The notes under the pieces: generated by a model
Databases searched by the model: none
Told to the model about the DNA's origin: nothing
The model's input: only the letters and a program-made list of their open reading frames with translations
Shown: in pieces, positions 2,658 through 22,968 of the stretch
How positions within the stretch are numbered: position 1 is the stretch's first letter
Layout of the letters: each line of letters begins with the position of its first letter
Assembly (NCBI GenBank): GCA_009726095.1
Contig: WLMZ01000027.1
Span: 1-34,250 of the forward strand
Direction of reading: 5' to 3'
Source: Actinomycetota bacterium
Lineage (GTDB): Bacteria; Actinomycetota; Acidimicrobiia; Acidimicrobiales; Ilumatobacteraceae
DNA length: 34,250 nt
Program-made: the position numbers and the translations under genes

Positions 2658-4133
2658 CTACCCGCGGCTACGTTCGACGGCGCGCAGCCACTGCGAGTGC
2701 AGGGTGTTGGCCAGCGTGCGGTCGGCCTCTGGGGTGAACTCGGCGTCGAGGTGCCACTGGTCGGTGATGGCCTGCAACGACGGCCAGACACCCTCGGCGA
2801 GTCCGGCGAGGAATGCCGCGCCGAGGGCTGTCGTCTCCTGATCGGCGGGCCGGCGCACGGTGACCCCGAGCTGGTCTGCTTGCATCTGCAACAACATGTC
2901 CAACACCGAGGCCCCGCCATCGACTCGCAGATCGTGCAGCTGAGTGCCCGATGCAGCGGTCATCGCATCGACGGCATCGCGCACGAGATAGGCAATCGAC
3001 TCCACAACAGCTCGCGCGATCTGGGCCCGACCCGTGCCGCGGGTGATGCCAACGATGGTGCCGCGGGCGTAGGGATCCCACCAGGGACTCCCCAGCCCCG
3101 TGAAGGCCGGCACCACATAGACGCCGCCGGTGTCGTCAACACTGGCGGCGAGGGGGCCGATCTCGGCGCTGGAGGAGATGATCTGCAGTCCGTCGCGTAG
3201 CCACTGCACGGCGGCGCCGGTGACGAAGATGGCGCCTTCGAGCGCATAGGTGGTTGTGCCGTCGGCCAGGGTCCACGCAACCGTGGTGAGCATGCCCTCG
3301 GTGGGCGGCGGGCAGTTGGTCCCCACGTTGAGCAACACGAAGCTGCCCGTGCCATAGGTGTTCTTGGCCATACCCGGCAGGAAGCACGCTTGGCCGAACA
3401 GGGCGCTCTGCTGATCTCCGGCGATGCCCGACACCGGGATACCTGCGGTGATGCCGCTGGTGGCGTGGGTGACCCCGAAACGGCCGCTGGAAGGCAGCAC
3501 CACGGGTAGGGCATGCATGGGGACGTGGAGGAGATCGCAGAGTTCGGGATCCCAGGCGAGGGTGCGAATGTCGAACAGCATGGTGCGGCTGGCGTTGGAT
3601 GGGTCGGTGGCGTGCACCTGTCCACCGGTGAGCTTCCACAGCAACCAGGAATCGACCGTGCCCAGGGCCAGGTCGTCGTTGTCCTGGACGCCGCCCTCGT
3701 GGAGCAACCACTCGAATTTGGTGCCACTGAAATACGGGTCGAGCACCAGCCCGGTGCGTTCGCGCACCATCGGCAATGCGCCCTGTTCGTTCAGTTCGTC
3801 GCATCGGGGCGCCGTGCGACGGTCCTGCCACACGATGGCCCGGTGCAGCGGGCGGCCCGTGCTGCGGCTCCAGGCCACCGCGGTTTCGCGCTGGTTGGTG
3901 ATGCCGATGGCGCTCGGGGGCTGGGGGAGTCGTGCCAACACATCGGTAAGGGTTGCCTGTGCCGCCTGCCAGATCTCGTCGGCATCGTGTTCGACCCAAC
4001 CGGGCTGGGGGAAGTACTGCGGGAACTCGCGATACGACGAAATCGGCGGTCGGCCATCGAGGAACACGGCGCGGGTGCGTACGCCGGTGGTACCAGCGTC
4101 GAGCGCCAGGACACAGGAGTCGTCGACGCTCAT
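2658..4133 (-). CDS. glpK: Glycerol kinase
   Basis: This 491-residue FGGY-family kinase phosphorylates glycerol to sn-glycerol 3-phosphate with ATP. The family motifs run in order: LALDAGTTGVR (N-terminal phosphate loop), TNQRET, WQDRRT, SGIAGDQQSALFGQ with the catalytic Asp, KNTYGTGSF, and the C-terminal GLGSPWWDPYARG and DGGAS. The E. coli fructose-1,6-bisphosphate loop (GGKGGTR) aligns with TSGITAG, so its key Arg is absent and that allosteric inhibition is probably lost. No glpF or glpD is adjacent. The start ATG overlaps the stop of the upstream small membrane protein gene (ATGA), so the two are probably translationally coupled. Confidence 0.95.
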   Translation of the reverse strand: MSVDDSCVLALDAGTTGVRTRAVFLDGRPPISSYREFPQYFPQPGWVEHDADEIWQAAQATLTDVLARLPQPPSAIGITNQRETAVAWSRSTGRPLHRAIVWQDRRTAPRCDELNEQGALPMVRERTGLVLDPYFSGTKFEWLLHEGGVQDNDDLALGTVDSWLLWKLTGGQVHATDPSNASRTMLFDIRTLAWDPELCDLLHVPMHALPVVLPSSGRFGVTHATSGITAGIPVSGIAGDQQSALFGQACFLPGMAKNTYGTGSFVLLNVGTNCPPPTEGMLTTVAWTLADGTTTYALEGAIFVTGAAVQWLRDGLQIISSSAEIGPLAASVDDTGGVYVVPAFTGLGSPWWDPYARGTIVGITRGTGRAQIARAVVESIAYLVRDAVDAMTAASGTQLHDLRVDGGASVLDMLLQMQADQLGVTVRRPADQETTALGAAFLAGLAEGVWPSLQAITDQWHLDAEFTPEADRTLANTLHSQWLRAVERSRG

Positions 4134-19504: not shown

Positions 19505-19753
19505 ATGGCCTGGTTCCGCATCATCGTTGCCGTGGCCTGCCGTCCGCGGTTGTGGGCAACGGCAGTGCGCCAGATGTGGCGCACCGCAGCACCGGGTTGG
19601 TACCGACGGGCGCCGTTCCTGCCTGTCCCCGCCGGCGAGTATCTGCGCTTCCGGTTGGTGACGCAATACGGCGACGCTCATCATCGACCCGAGGTCGCCG
19701 ATGTGGTCAACTATCTGGCGTGGTGCAGGCAATGGAACAGCGACACTCCTTGA
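19505..19753 (+). CDS. Small conserved protein, unknown function
   Basis: This 82-residue protein starts MAWFRIIVAVACRPRLWATA, with a short hydrophobic start but no clear full membrane helix. It continues with basic and aromatic segments (MWRTAAPGWYRRAPFLPVPA, EYLRFRLVTQYGD) and ends DVVNYLAWCRQWNSDTP. The pattern looks like a real coding sequence, with conserved-looking Trp, Arg and Pro positions, and similar short proteins occur in actinobacteria as far as I recall. No function can be given. It starts 29 nt after the dehydrogenase stop, with GAAGGG about 11 nt upstream of the ATG, and is probably co-transcribed with it. Confidence 0.6.
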   Translation: MAWFRIIVAVACRPRLWATAVRQMWRTAAPGWYRRAPFLPVPAGEYLRFRLVTQYGDAHHRPEVADVVNYLAWCRQWNSDTP

Positions 19754-19832
19754 AGCAGCCAGAGCGACCGGTCGCGCCACGCCCCGATATCCCACCGTCG
19801 TCTCCCGGCGCGCGTCGTTAAGGCCGCGACCC

Positions 19833-20330
19833 ATGCGAAGCGCCCTCGTGTTGAATGCAACGTACGAGCCGCTGAGCGTGGTGCCTGCCCGTCGGGCTGC
19901 GTGTCTGGTGTGGGCCGATAAGGCCGACCTGATCGAAGACGACGGCACCGAACTCCGGTCGGAGAACCTCGCCCTGCCGAACCCGCTGGTGATCCGGTTG
20001 CGCTACGTCGTGAAGGTGCCCTACCACCGGCGCACGGCGTTGTCGCGGCGGGCCGTGTTCGTGCGCGACAACCACTTGTGCCAGTACTGCGGTGGTCACG
20101 CCGATTCCATCGATCACGTCATGCCGCGCTCGCGCGGCGGTGGGAACGAATGGGAAAACGTGGCCGCAGCGTGCCGGCCGTGCAATCTGCACAAACGCGA
20201 CCGCACGCCCGACGAGGCCGACATGCGCCTGGCCCGCACGCCTCGGGCTCCGCGCGAGCAGGCCTGGGTGGTGGTCAGCGTTGGCCTGGTGCCCGATGCG
20301 TGGAAGCCCTATCTGGCCACTGCGTCGTAA
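19833..20330 (+). CDS. HNH endonuclease
   Basis: This 165-residue protein has a zinc-bound HNH domain: CQYCGG (Cys83, Cys86), SIDHVMPRSRGG with the catalytic His95, ENVAAACRPCNLHK with Asn109, Cys114, Cys117 and His120. The N-terminal half (ALVLNATYEPLSVVPARRA) matches the common actinobacterial stand-alone HNH family, in which the role is not established. It could nick or cut DNA in repair, but no methylase or toxin partner is adjacent, so a restriction role is unlikely. The ATG at 19833 gives the conserved MRSALVLNATYEPL start. A ligase-family gene follows 29 nt downstream. Confidence 0.9.
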   Translation: MRSALVLNATYEPLSVVPARRAACLVWADKADLIEDDGTELRSENLALPNPLVIRLRYVVKVPYHRRTALSRRAVFVRDNHLCQYCGGHADSIDHVMPRSRGGGNEWENVAAACRPCNLHKRDRTPDEADMRLARTPRAPREQAWVVVSVGLVPDAWKPYLATAS

Positions 20331-20359
20331 AGGCGGCTGCGTACGGGCATGCTGATGCC

Positions 20360-21019
20360 GTGTGGCAGGTGCAGGTCGATCGGGGTCGGGCCGAGACGTT
20401 CCACGGTCGCGACATGCCAGTGGTCGTCGAGCCCAGCGTGTGGTGGTTCGAAGTCGATCGCCCGGCACTGGTGCTCGGTTCGGCCCAGCCCATCGGGCAC
20501 ATCGACGTTGAGGCTTGCGAACGGGCAGGAGTCGATGTGGTCAGGCGCCGCAGCGGGGGAGGTGCCGTGCTGCTTCGGCCCGACGAAGTGCTCTGGGCCG
20601 ACATCTTGATCCCCGCTGACTCGCCGCTGTGGACGCCCGATGTCTCGAGCTCGGCATGGTGGCTGGGGGAGGCGTGGCGCGAGGCGCTCACGACATTGGG
20701 AATGGATGATCTCCATGTACACCGGGCGCCGATGCAGCGCAGCGAATGGTCGGCACAGGTGTGCTTTGCCGGCGTGGGCGGCGGCGAGGTGATGCTCGGC
20801 CGACGCAAGGTCGTGGGCATCAGCCAGCGTCGCACCCGTGCCGGGGCCCGCCTGCAGTGCGCGGTCTACCGGCAGTGGCAGCCCGAGGCCCACGTGCCCT
20901 TGTTTGCGGCCCCCGGGCCGACGCTCGACGCCCTGGCCGACTGCGTGGCGCCCGTGCCGATGCCGTTTGCCGAGATCCGCCGGGCCCTGCTCGACGCGCT
21001 CGAGGCCCTCGCCGGCTGA
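20360..21019 (+). CDS. Lipoate/biotin protein ligase family protein
   Basis: This 219-residue protein belongs to the BPL/LplA/LipB fold. The diagnostic segment is VVRRRSGGGAVLLRPDEVLW (about 61-80), the ligand loop, and GRRKVVGISQRRTRAG supplies the substrate-binding Lys. Such enzymes attach or transfer lipoyl, octanoyl or biotinyl groups onto carrier-domain lysines. It is shorter than E. coli LplA and lacks its C-terminal accessory domain, so activation and transfer may be split or altered. The GTG at 20360 gives MWQVQVDRGRAETFHG; GTG 20369 is an alternative. The exact acyl group is not determined by the sequence. Confidence 0.78.
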   Translation: MWQVQVDRGRAETFHGRDMPVVVEPSVWWFEVDRPALVLGSAQPIGHIDVEACERAGVDVVRRRSGGGAVLLRPDEVLWADILIPADSPLWTPDVSSSAWWLGEAWREALTTLGMDDLHVHRAPMQRSEWSAQVCFAGVGGGEVMLGRRKVVGISQRRTRAGARLQCAVYRQWQPEAHVPLFAAPGPTLDALADCVAPVPMPFAEIRRALLDALEALAG

Positions 21020-21141: not shown

Positions 21142-21224
21142 TTCCCCACCGAAACAGGGCTTTCGCGCGCATAATGCTCGAATGTGGCGGGGTCGGCGAA
21201 GAAAATGTGGCCCTCGGTGGGGAA
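21142..21224. repeat. 11-bp inverted repeat upstream of the mraZ promoter
   Basis: TTCCCCACCGA (21142-21152) is inverted exactly as TCGGTGGGGAA (21214-21224), with 61 nt between. The second arm ends 6 nt before the -35 hexamer of the mraZ promoter. The rest of the 298-nt gap between the ligase gene and mraZ holds only the hairpin, this repeat, the promoter and the operator described here. Confidence 0.6.
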
Positions 21225-21230
21225 TATCGA

Positions 21231-21259
21231 TTGACTTTTGGGTCGTGGTGGGGCATAGT
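21231..21259 (+). promoter_or_regulatory. dcw cluster promoter TTGACT-17-CATAGT
   Basis: TTGACT (21231-21236, five of six matches) is 17 nt from CATAGT (21254-21259). It is the best housekeeping-type promoter in the window. Transcription would start near 21266, giving a leader of about 50 nt whose first bases can pair (ACGTGG at 21266-21271 with CCACGT at 21281-21286). AAGG lies just before the mraZ ATG. Confidence 0.75.
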
Positions 21260-21273
21260 GGGGATACGTGGGA
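21239..21273 (+). promoter_or_regulatory. Probable MraZ operator: four TGGGN boxes at 10-bp period
   Basis: TGGGT (21239), TGGGG (21249), TGGGG (21259) and TGGGA (21269) are each separated by exactly 5 nt. E. coli MraZ is known to bind TGGGN direct repeats with 5-nt spacers in front of its own operon. The boxes cover the promoter spacer, the -10 hexamer and the start site, so bound MraZ should block transcription of the whole cluster. Confidence 0.85.
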
Positions 21274-21317
21274 TCCCGGACCACGTGAGGCAGCGATCGG
21301 GAAGAAATCGAAGGGCA

Positions 21318-21740
21318 ATGCAGAAGTTTCTTGGCGTTTTTGAACGGCAACTCGACATCAAGGGTCGGTTGGCGCTTCCTGCCACGTATCGCGCGCGCCT
21401 GGGTACGAGCTGCTACCTCACGTTGGGAACGGACAACAGCATCGAGGTCTTCACGACCGAAAAGTTCGAAGAGGAGGCAGACCGCATGCAAGAACTCCAG
21501 GCCAGAGGCGAAATCAGCATGGATCGGCTGCGTGCTTTCTCGGCCAGGGCGTTGGCCATCGAGCCAGACGCCCAGGGTCGCATCTATCTCGACGAACGGC
21601 TTCGCAAGCACGCCCGGCTCGAGGTCAGGGGCCCCGTCATGGTGATGGGTCGCCTCGATCGGATCGAGATCTGCTCAGTCGAGCGATACGACCGCAGCAT
21701 GGCCGCCGGCGAGCAGGAGTACTCCGAAACCAGCTCATGA
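21318..21740 (+). CDS. mraZ: Transcriptional regulator MraZ
   Basis: This 140-residue protein has two SpoVT/AbrB-like halves, each with the DxxGR signature: LDIKGRLALPATYR (12-25) and DAQGRIYLDERLRKHA (84-99). MraZ forms ring-shaped oligomers that bind TGGGN repeats and repress the dcw operon. Four such boxes lie over this gene's promoter, so autorepression is likely. The length is normal. The ATG is preceded by AAGGG with a short spacer. Its stop overlaps an ATG of a short open frame (ATGA) that spans the structured gap to rsmH. Confidence 0.95.
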   Translation: MQKFLGVFERQLDIKGRLALPATYRARLGTSCYLTLGTDNSIEVFTTEKFEEEADRMQELQARGEISMDRLRAFSARALAIEPDAQGRIYLDERLRKHARLEVRGPVMVMGRLDRIEICSVERYDRSMAAGEQEYSETSS

Positions 21741-21847
21741 CCAGCCGCCCGACTCGCCCCCGACAGTCTTCGCTGGCGGGTGCACATTCACGAAAGGGGG
21801 CTCAGGCCCGAAGAACACAGACAGCACAATCAGGTCCGGTGAGTTCC

Positions 21848-21964
21848 GCTCATCGGCAGTCTCCCGGTCAGCAGATGCAGCATTCGTTCCGCCCGCTTCC
21901 ATCTCGCGCCGTCCGGGGAGAAATCCCGGCGACCATGGCTTCCCGGGAGACTGCCGATGAGCGG
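21848..21964 (+). ncRNA. Putative structured leader between mraZ and rsmH (22-bp inverted repeat)
   Basis: Positions 21848-21869 and 21943-21964 are exact inverted copies over 22 bp, leaving a 73-nt loop. The loop holds a smaller hairpin, CCGGG (21913-21917) with CCCGG (21925-21929). The second arm ends 11 nt before the GAGGAAA ribosome site of rsmH, so the site stays outside the stem. No T tract follows. An mraW RNA motif from actinobacteria is a known precedent for structure here, but I cannot confirm a match. RNase III processing or translational control are possible roles. The rest of the 247-nt gap shows nothing clear. Confidence 0.6.
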
Positions 21965-21987
21965 GGCGCGATGGCGAGGAAACCCCA

Positions 21988-22968
21988 TTGAACAGCTCTC
22001 AGTTTGCACAGAACGACGACGCGGCCCGCAGCGCGGGATTTCACCACGTGCCGGTGATGGCGCATGAGATCATCGAGTTGTTCACCACGGTTCCCCCAGG
22101 TGTGGTGCTCGATGCCACCCTCGGCGGAGGCGGGCACAGCGAGCTCCTCCTCGAACGCCATCCCCACCTGAGCATTCTCGGCATCGATCGGGACCTGAGC
22201 GCCATCGCCGCGGCAACGCAGCGTCTCGCCCGGTTCGCGGACCGCTTCCGGGCAGTGCACTGTCGTTTCGATCACCTGACGACCGCCATGAACACAGCAA
22301 ACGTTGCAACGCTCAGTGGAGCCCTGTTCGACCTCGGTGTCTCCTCGCCCCAGCTCGATCAGGCCGAGCGCGGGTTCTCCTATCGCCACGATGCCCCGCT
22401 CGACATGCGGATGGACCCATCCGAGCCATGGAGCGCTGCCGATGTCGTAAACGGTTGTACCGAACAGGAACTCACCCGGATCCTGTCCGAATACGGCGAC
22501 GAGCGATTCGCCCCCCGAATCGCTCGCGCCATCATCGCCCACCGCCCGATCGAGTCGACCGCCGAGCTGGCTGAAGTCGTTGTCGGAGCAATCCCCGCAG
22601 CGGCGCGCCGCACCGGGGGCCACCCGGCGAAGCGGTCGTTCCAGGCCATTCGCATCGCTGTGAACCGCGAGTTGGAGATCCTGCCCGCCGCGATCGATGC
22701 CGCCATCGCCGCCACCACCGTCGGCGGCCGCGTCGCGGTGCTGTCGTACCACTCGGGCGAGGACCGCATCGTGAAAGAGCGGTTTCGTTCGGCTGAGACC
22801 GGCGATTGCACGTGCCCGTCGGGATTGCCATGCGTCTGCGGCGCCATTCGCACCGTGCGCCTGGTGCGCCGTGTGCCTCGCACGCCGGGTGCCGACGAGC
22901 TGGCCAGCAACCGCCGCGCCGCATCGGCGCGCCTGCGCGTCGTCGAGAAGATCGCGCTGGATCACTGA
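21988..22968 (+). CDS. rsmH: 16S rRNA (cytosine(1402)-N(4))-methyltransferase RsmH
   Basis: This 326-residue enzyme (MraW) methylates N4 of C1402 in 16S rRNA using S-adenosylmethionine. Motifs are HHVPVMAHEIIEL, the SAM loop LDATLGGGGHSELLL, GIDRD, GALFDLGVSSPQLD, and the C-terminal RVAVLSYHSGEDRIVKERF, where the usual Leu in SYHSLEDR is Gly. A Cys-rich segment (CTCPSGLPCVCG) near 273-284 is typical. The start must be TTG 21988: an in-frame stop lies at 21958-21960, no ATG or GTG falls between, and GAGGAAA sits 5 nt upstream. A later GTG would remove the conserved HVPV segment. ftsL follows 2 nt after the stop. Confidence 0.94.
   Translation: MNSSQFAQNDDAARSAGFHHVPVMAHEIIELFTTVPPGVVLDATLGGGGHSELLLERHPHLSILGIDRDLSAIAAATQRLARFADRFRAVHCRFDHLTTAMNTANVATLSGALFDLGVSSPQLDQAERGFSYRHDAPLDMRMDPSEPWSAADVVNGCTEQELTRILSEYGDERFAPRIARAIIAHRPIESTAELAEVVVGAIPAAARRTGGHPAKRSFQAIRIAVNRELEILPAAIDAAIAATTVGGRVAVLSYHSGEDRIVKERFRSAETGDCTCPSGLPCVCGAIRTVRLVRRVPRTPGADELASNRRAASARLRVVEKIALDH

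Follow-up and report, generated by a model that had tools for sequence, protein, structure and literature searches.

Why does a perfect inverted repeat, far longer than any other nearby, lie between mraZ and rsmH in a member of the Acidimicrobiia? The repeat is part of a stretch of 34,250 nucleotides (contig WLMZ01000027.1, forward strand; here referred to as the window) from a genome of the family Ilumatobacteraceae, and a preliminary description of this DNA considered several roles for it, namely, a site for RNase III, a limit on read-through from mraZ, a control of rsmH translation, or the remains of a small palindromic element. The repeat is a conserved folded RNA, and it functions at the RNA level with the polarity of rsmH. 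It is best explained as the outer stem (P1) of a cis-acting leader RNA, conserved in the mraZ-rsmH messenger of Acidimicrobiia, that controls the translation of rsmH; we give this reading a probability of roughly 0.6. The structure, its strand, its fixed place 5' of rsmH, and the in-frame start codon in one arm of 38 of 81 copies are computational observations. A class-wide structured RNA heads a gene cluster for cell wall and division, and it offers a testable handle on the role that the mraW RNA, and RNAs comparable to it, play in Actinomycetota, as well as on the reason for an RNA leader on a 16S rRNA methyltransferase gene. A possible mechanism is suggested by the start codon that many copies have within the stem.

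Gene neighbourhood of the repeat

The genes that flank the repeat, and the site that precedes them, are as follows.

21231 to 21272, + strand: promoter-like site (21231-21259) with three GTGGG repeats (21248-21272), 5' of mraZ (promoter scan, repeat count)
21318 to 21740, + strand: mraZ (Pfam MraZ, E 5.5e-18)
21988 to 22968, + strand: rsmH (mraW), with a TTG start (Pfam MraW methylase, E 3e-108)

The gap between the mraZ stop and the rsmH start measures 247 nt, and the cluster continues with genes for a penicillin-binding transpeptidase, Mur ligases, and proteins of the MraY, FtsW and MurG types. The three GTGGG repeats, for which the chance expectation in the window is 0.00, overlap the promoter-like site. 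The site is probably the promoter for the entire operon; repeats of this kind bind MraZ, and it is probably MraZ's own operator as well. In the mraZ-rsmH gap, the scan detected neither promoter-like nor terminator-like signals of the kinds covered, and rsmH is therefore probably transcribed from the mraZ promoter. An intrinsic terminator was rejected, as positions 21200-22050 contain no G+C-rich hairpin with a T run. The gap sequence had no match when searched against phages. Upstream of mraZ, two overlapping frames (19701-20330 and 20078-21019) have matches to the HNH endonuclease and lipoate/biotin ligase families.

It is very improbable that the gap codes for a protein. An 84-aa frame (21737-21991) is open in the window and makes stop/start overlaps with the genes at either end, but it has no Pfam match, and in six of seven same-genus loci it is interrupted by a stop ahead of the end of the RNA, for which it was rejected; in the seventh (L011), the frame is open through the RNA and stops later.

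The repeat as the outer stem of a structured RNA

Two 22-nt arms without mismatch are located at 21846-21867 and 21943-21964, with a spacer of 75 nt. The perfect arms first described are real, while the start and spacing then given (21848 and 73 nt) were each off by two. Their length also stands out as had been stated: among perfect inverted repeats with arms no more than 200 nt apart, the runner-up in the window has only 13 nt, and the maximum in 100 first-order Markov windows was 15 nt, reached once. When G-U pairs are counted, P1 comprises 25 bp (21843-21867 / 21943-21967). The 136-nt RNA has a folding energy of -78 kcal/mol (z = -5.25), and none of 200 shuffles was equally stable. P1 encloses two hairpins, P2 and P3, in an RNA of ~125 nt; the inner hairpin of the preliminary description exists, as one of a pair. 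The elements of this RNA and of the start region of rsmH are listed below.

21835 to 21975, + strand: whole leader RNA element (match to covariance model R1, 115.3 bits, E 3.4e-26; the window is itself among the 45 sequences behind R1)
21843 to 21867, + strand: 5' arm of the outer helix P1 (21846-21867 perfect; fold and repeat search)
21873 to 21904, + strand: P2 hairpin, an AGATG/CATCT stem with a C-rich loop (covariation, loop counts)
21913 to 21929, + strand: P3 hairpin, CCGGG-GAGAAAU-CCCGG (covariation)
21943 to 21967, + strand: 3' arm of the outer helix P1 (21943-21964 perfect; fold and repeat search)
21957 to 21959, + strand: AUG in the P1 3' arm, at the position where many relatives start rsmH; in the window it is out of frame and precedes the rsmH start by 31 nt
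21976 to 21982, + strand: GAGGAAA, probable rsmH ribosome-binding site, outside the stem (read from sequence)

Pairing between the P2 loop and P3 was inspected by eye and excluded from the counts given below.

Distribution and fixed place

The same type of repeat occurs in the gap 5' of rsmH in many relatives. An alignment of 45 sequences (A1), from which L008 and L079 (near-identical to others) and L057 (a false repeat) were left out and in which L090 was trimmed, is the source of R1. Among 100 genomes, 95 of which have a detected rsmH (own genome included), R1 matches 63, again including the own genome, and every match lies beside rsmH as judged by eye against the rsmH positions; L013 and L022, at ~14 bits, were scored as no match. 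Each of the 63 genomes has one locus, second matches being the same place on the opposite strand. When applied to a draw of 396 Actinomycetota genomes, R1 matched 22, all in Acidimicrobiia, and rsmH is downstream in all 17 loci taken from this search. Taken over all copies examined, rsmH is downstream on the same strand in 82 of 82.

A second covariance model, R2, matches 218 of 296 Acidimicrobiia genomes, a presence count in which the gene neighbours were seen for part only. In the phylum draw it matches 24 of 396 genomes, all among the 38 members of Acidimicrobiia, and none of the 358 genomes outside the class. These R2 searches used strict filters and can miss weak matches. The conservation in relatives that the preliminary description had proposed to look for with a new model is thus present in 63 of 100 genomes and 218 of 296 members of the class.

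This distribution bears on the suggestion that the repeat is the remnant of a mobile palindrome of the REP or MITE type. Such an element would fit a repeat that is long, nearly perfect and intergenic, yet the arm has no second copy in its own genome at up to 2 mismatches (assembly 87.8% complete), and the search yielded just two stray matches with 3 mismatches. With a single locus in each of the 63 matched genomes, a fixed place, and covariation (see below), a mobile origin is extremely improbable and was rejected.

In L139, a second weak R1 match (2237-2333, 31.4 bits) lies upstream of the main match (2903-3016). In L020 (G026:C117), ~1.1 kb separates an mraZ-like match from rsmH, and the RNA is still directly 5' of rsmH. 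In genome G634, the R2 match is in pieces on two contigs.

Covariation and strand

In A1, 94.7% of cells pair and both sides have changed in 31 of 39 pairs; none of 500 shuffles reached any of five measures. When the structure is slid along the alignment, 37-47% of cells pair. In a larger alignment of 99 sequences (A5), which includes copies of 45-47% GC, 93.5% of cells pair and, again with 0 of 500 shuffles equalling any of the measures, both sides have changed in 37 of 39 pairs, which provides the compensating base changes in the arms that had been named as a check. Because A1 yielded the structure and A5 was aligned to the resulting model, the slide control is biased towards that structure. 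Left out of A5 were L008, L079, L021, L239, L241, L245, L216 and L222-L224, as well as the R1-matched loci L095-L097, L100, L107, L110, L139, L140, L146, L151, L158, L161 and L163; these are duplicates, weak or incomplete copies, or beyond 100 sources, and inclusion of the weak copies would reduce the share of paired cells. G-U cells outnumber A-C cells (442 vs 78), and the window scores 115 bits with R1 on the rsmH strand vs 48 on the other. This indicates that the fold is kept as an RNA of the rsmH (messenger) strand.

Comparison with the mraW RNA and other known RNAs

A leader RNA of the same gene is already known, namely, the mraW RNA motif (Rfam RF01746) of Weinberg et al. 2010 (PMC2864571), and a search with it had been proposed for this locus. 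RF01746 has no match in the window at the gathering cut-off (50 bits), nor in 21740-22000 at E up to 10, and none in the 100 relatives or in 14 distant loci of the class. In the reverse direction, R1 at E up to 1 has no match in six loci carrying RF01746, and R2 has none in 35 loci, 32 of them with an RF01746 match (L274 and L275 left out). In the draw of 396 Actinomycetota genomes, RF01746 was matched in 28 (22 above the cut-off), none of them in Acidimicrobiia, and R2 in 24, with an overlap of zero. The two RNAs are alike in their position 5' of rsmH, their long helix, and the C-rich loop at the tip. They differ in that the mraW RNA is a single hairpin whereas the Acidimicrobiia RNA has P2 plus P3, and in that the tip loop reads ACUUCCCC in 24 of 28 mraW RNA loci vs mostly ACUCCGCCC in the Acidimicrobiia RNA. 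With no match in either direction, and a single hairpin vs two inner hairpins, membership in RF01746 was rejected. On these sequence comparisons, the like place and tip loop would not be proof of common descent, nor would the missing match exclude it. Five copies from other orders of the class (L217, L219, L222, L223 and L224; 116-119 nt) lack P3 and form one long hairpin; these are nearer to the mraW RNA in shape and are possible intermediates.

No family of Rfam 15 matches the Acidimicrobiia rsmH leader RNA; weak matches of the window to MIR9677, Termite-flg and MIR1858 (E 0.098 to 9.1) were taken as chance. The mraW motif is among the leader transcripts detected in the work excerpted from PMC4046766. 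The METTL15/RsmH literature, in its listings and passages, gives no hint of a leader, and the titles and abstract openings searched, which cover few subscription journals, hold no description of an Acidimicrobiia rsmH leader RNA. The structured leader of rsmH is real and class-wide, and a description of it was found nowhere in the literature searched.

The corynebacterial data on the mraW RNA bear on a further explanation, in which RNase III would cut the 25-bp helix, part mraZ from rsmH, and leave a new rsmH 5' end near the ribosome-binding site. As a full account of the repeat, this is rather unlikely. The stem exceeds 20 bp and the genome has an RNase III gene (rnc). Moreover, passages of PMC3890552 and PMC5784534 place a mapped 5' end of the C. 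glutamicum rsmH messenger within the mraW RNA, close to the 3' end of that RNA, and say that the C. diphtheriae mraW motif sits upstream of the rsmH start site; these papers term such 5' ends transcription starts. The corynebacterial ends, however, belong to a different RNA family, and processing alone would leave the C-rich loop (CCRCC in 97 of 99), P2, P3 and the start codons in the arm unexplained. Cutting by RNase III may act alongside the control of translation.

The rsmH start codon and the 3' arm

The control of rsmH translation, which the preliminary description had listed among its options, is supported by the compensatory changes, the conserved place, and a start codon within the stem of many relatives. 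One column of the 3' arm holds AUG, GUG or UUG in 59 of 82 copies, with a G-rich stretch about six nt upstream. Of 81 copies (L216, from the same genome as L234, was dropped from the 82), 38 have an in-frame rsmH start codon within the 3' arm: it is the most downstream candidate in 27, has another candidate downstream in 9, and is at the edge of the match in 2. The remaining 43 copies, the window included, have no in-frame start in the arm, with a start-like codon out of frame in 20 and none in 23. It follows that the hiding of a start codon is not what maintains the RNA.

The distance to the mraZ stop is shorter in copies with an in-frame arm start (medians 29 vs 63.5 nt, n = 35 and 40, i.e., the 75 of 81 copies with an mraZ distance; Mann-Whitney p = 1.1e-4, for related species with kinship ignored). 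The short copies of other orders (L217, L219, L222-L224) have the arm start in frame in all five cases, suggesting an in-stem start as the ancestral state. In the window, the rsmH start has moved downstream of the arm: GAGGAAA begins nine nt past the stem. Because the TTG at 21988 is 21 nt beyond the helix, the RNA could act here only from just upstream, via ribosome access or cleavage. As proposed for the class, the P1 helix would keep rsmH translation low, and it would be opened or held either by a factor that acts on the C-rich loop of P2 or by a ribosome as it completes mraZ.

Translationally coupled genes in which a stem hides the start site are known. The Acidimicrobiia RNA resembles them in the in-frame start within the 3' arm (38 of 81 copies) and in the upstream stop codon, which is nearer in copies with an arm start. 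It differs from a plain coupling stem in its additional conserved inner hairpins and loop and, in the window, in a start outside the stem.

The P2 loop and its resemblance to 16S rRNA

The P2 loop contains CCRCC in 97 of 99 sequences, CUCCRCC in 96 of 99 (the window, with UUCCGCC, is one of the three exceptions), and CCGCCCG in 76 of 99; variants include CCACC, CCACCU and UUCGCC. In the window, CCGCCCG occupies 21889-21895. We take CCGCCCG to be the 16S rRNA sequence around position C1402. A 16S rRNA was searched for in the own genome and none was found; relatives were therefore used, and a 16-nt pattern containing CCGCCCG, GYACACACCGCCCGTC, was found in five of eight. RsmH methylates C1402 of 16S rRNA (PMC5053481). 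A feedback can be conceived in which the P2 loop would imitate 16S rRNA around C1402, so that free RsmH would bind it and keep the leader closed. Such feedback is improbable, even though CCGCCCG, seen in 76 of 99 loops, arises in only 1.6% of shuffled loops and the leader belongs to the gene for the C1402 methyltransferase itself. The match was picked post hoc, 5.3% of shuffled loops contain some 7-mer that spans C1402, kinship links the 76 copies, and the loop varies. Furthermore, RsmH is reported to require the assembled 30S subunit, not free 16S rRNA (excerpt of PMC5053481), and human METTL15 to bind RNA without sequence preference (passage of PMC10828496).

Carried to its full extent, the same improbable idea would have an rRNA methyltransferase gauge either its own abundance or how many unmodified 30S subunits are available, through an imitation of the decoding site, with its start codon locked in the same fold; the mraW RNA would then be a long-diverged or independent version, and leader control of RsmH would be a phylum-wide theme in Actinomycetota. 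Ribosomal-protein operon leaders that imitate rRNA exist. As in these, the gene product acts on rRNA and the loop resembles its target; unlike in these, the resemblance is short and not universal.

Loci without the RNA

The leader RNA that we favour as a control of rsmH translation is lacking in 24 loci of the family. Both genes were seen in 23 of these, and in 21 of them rsmH starts at the mraZ stop, defined as a possible rsmH start no more than 16 nt from where the mraZ stop ends (19 by script; L026 and L070 by eye, with ATGA). The exceptions are L064, with a start 76 nt away, and L013, with candidates at 148, 85 and -14 nt, which was counted as an exception; L034 and L056 have an additional candidate start 17 and 29 nt downstream. 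Of eight RNA-less loci at the order level, four show both genes, with a start within 8 nt in L232 and L247 and no start at the mraZ stop in L242 (37 nt) and L246 (28, 19 or -20 nt). The loss of the RNA therefore often accompanies a direct overlap of mraZ and rsmH.

Lastly, in two same-genus genomes (G005:C80:826-1851, L041; G006:C296:7517-8542), rsmH matches as two pieces within a single open frame, a pattern that would fit an in-frame insert in RsmH, roughly 26-30 residues long and located near residue 107.
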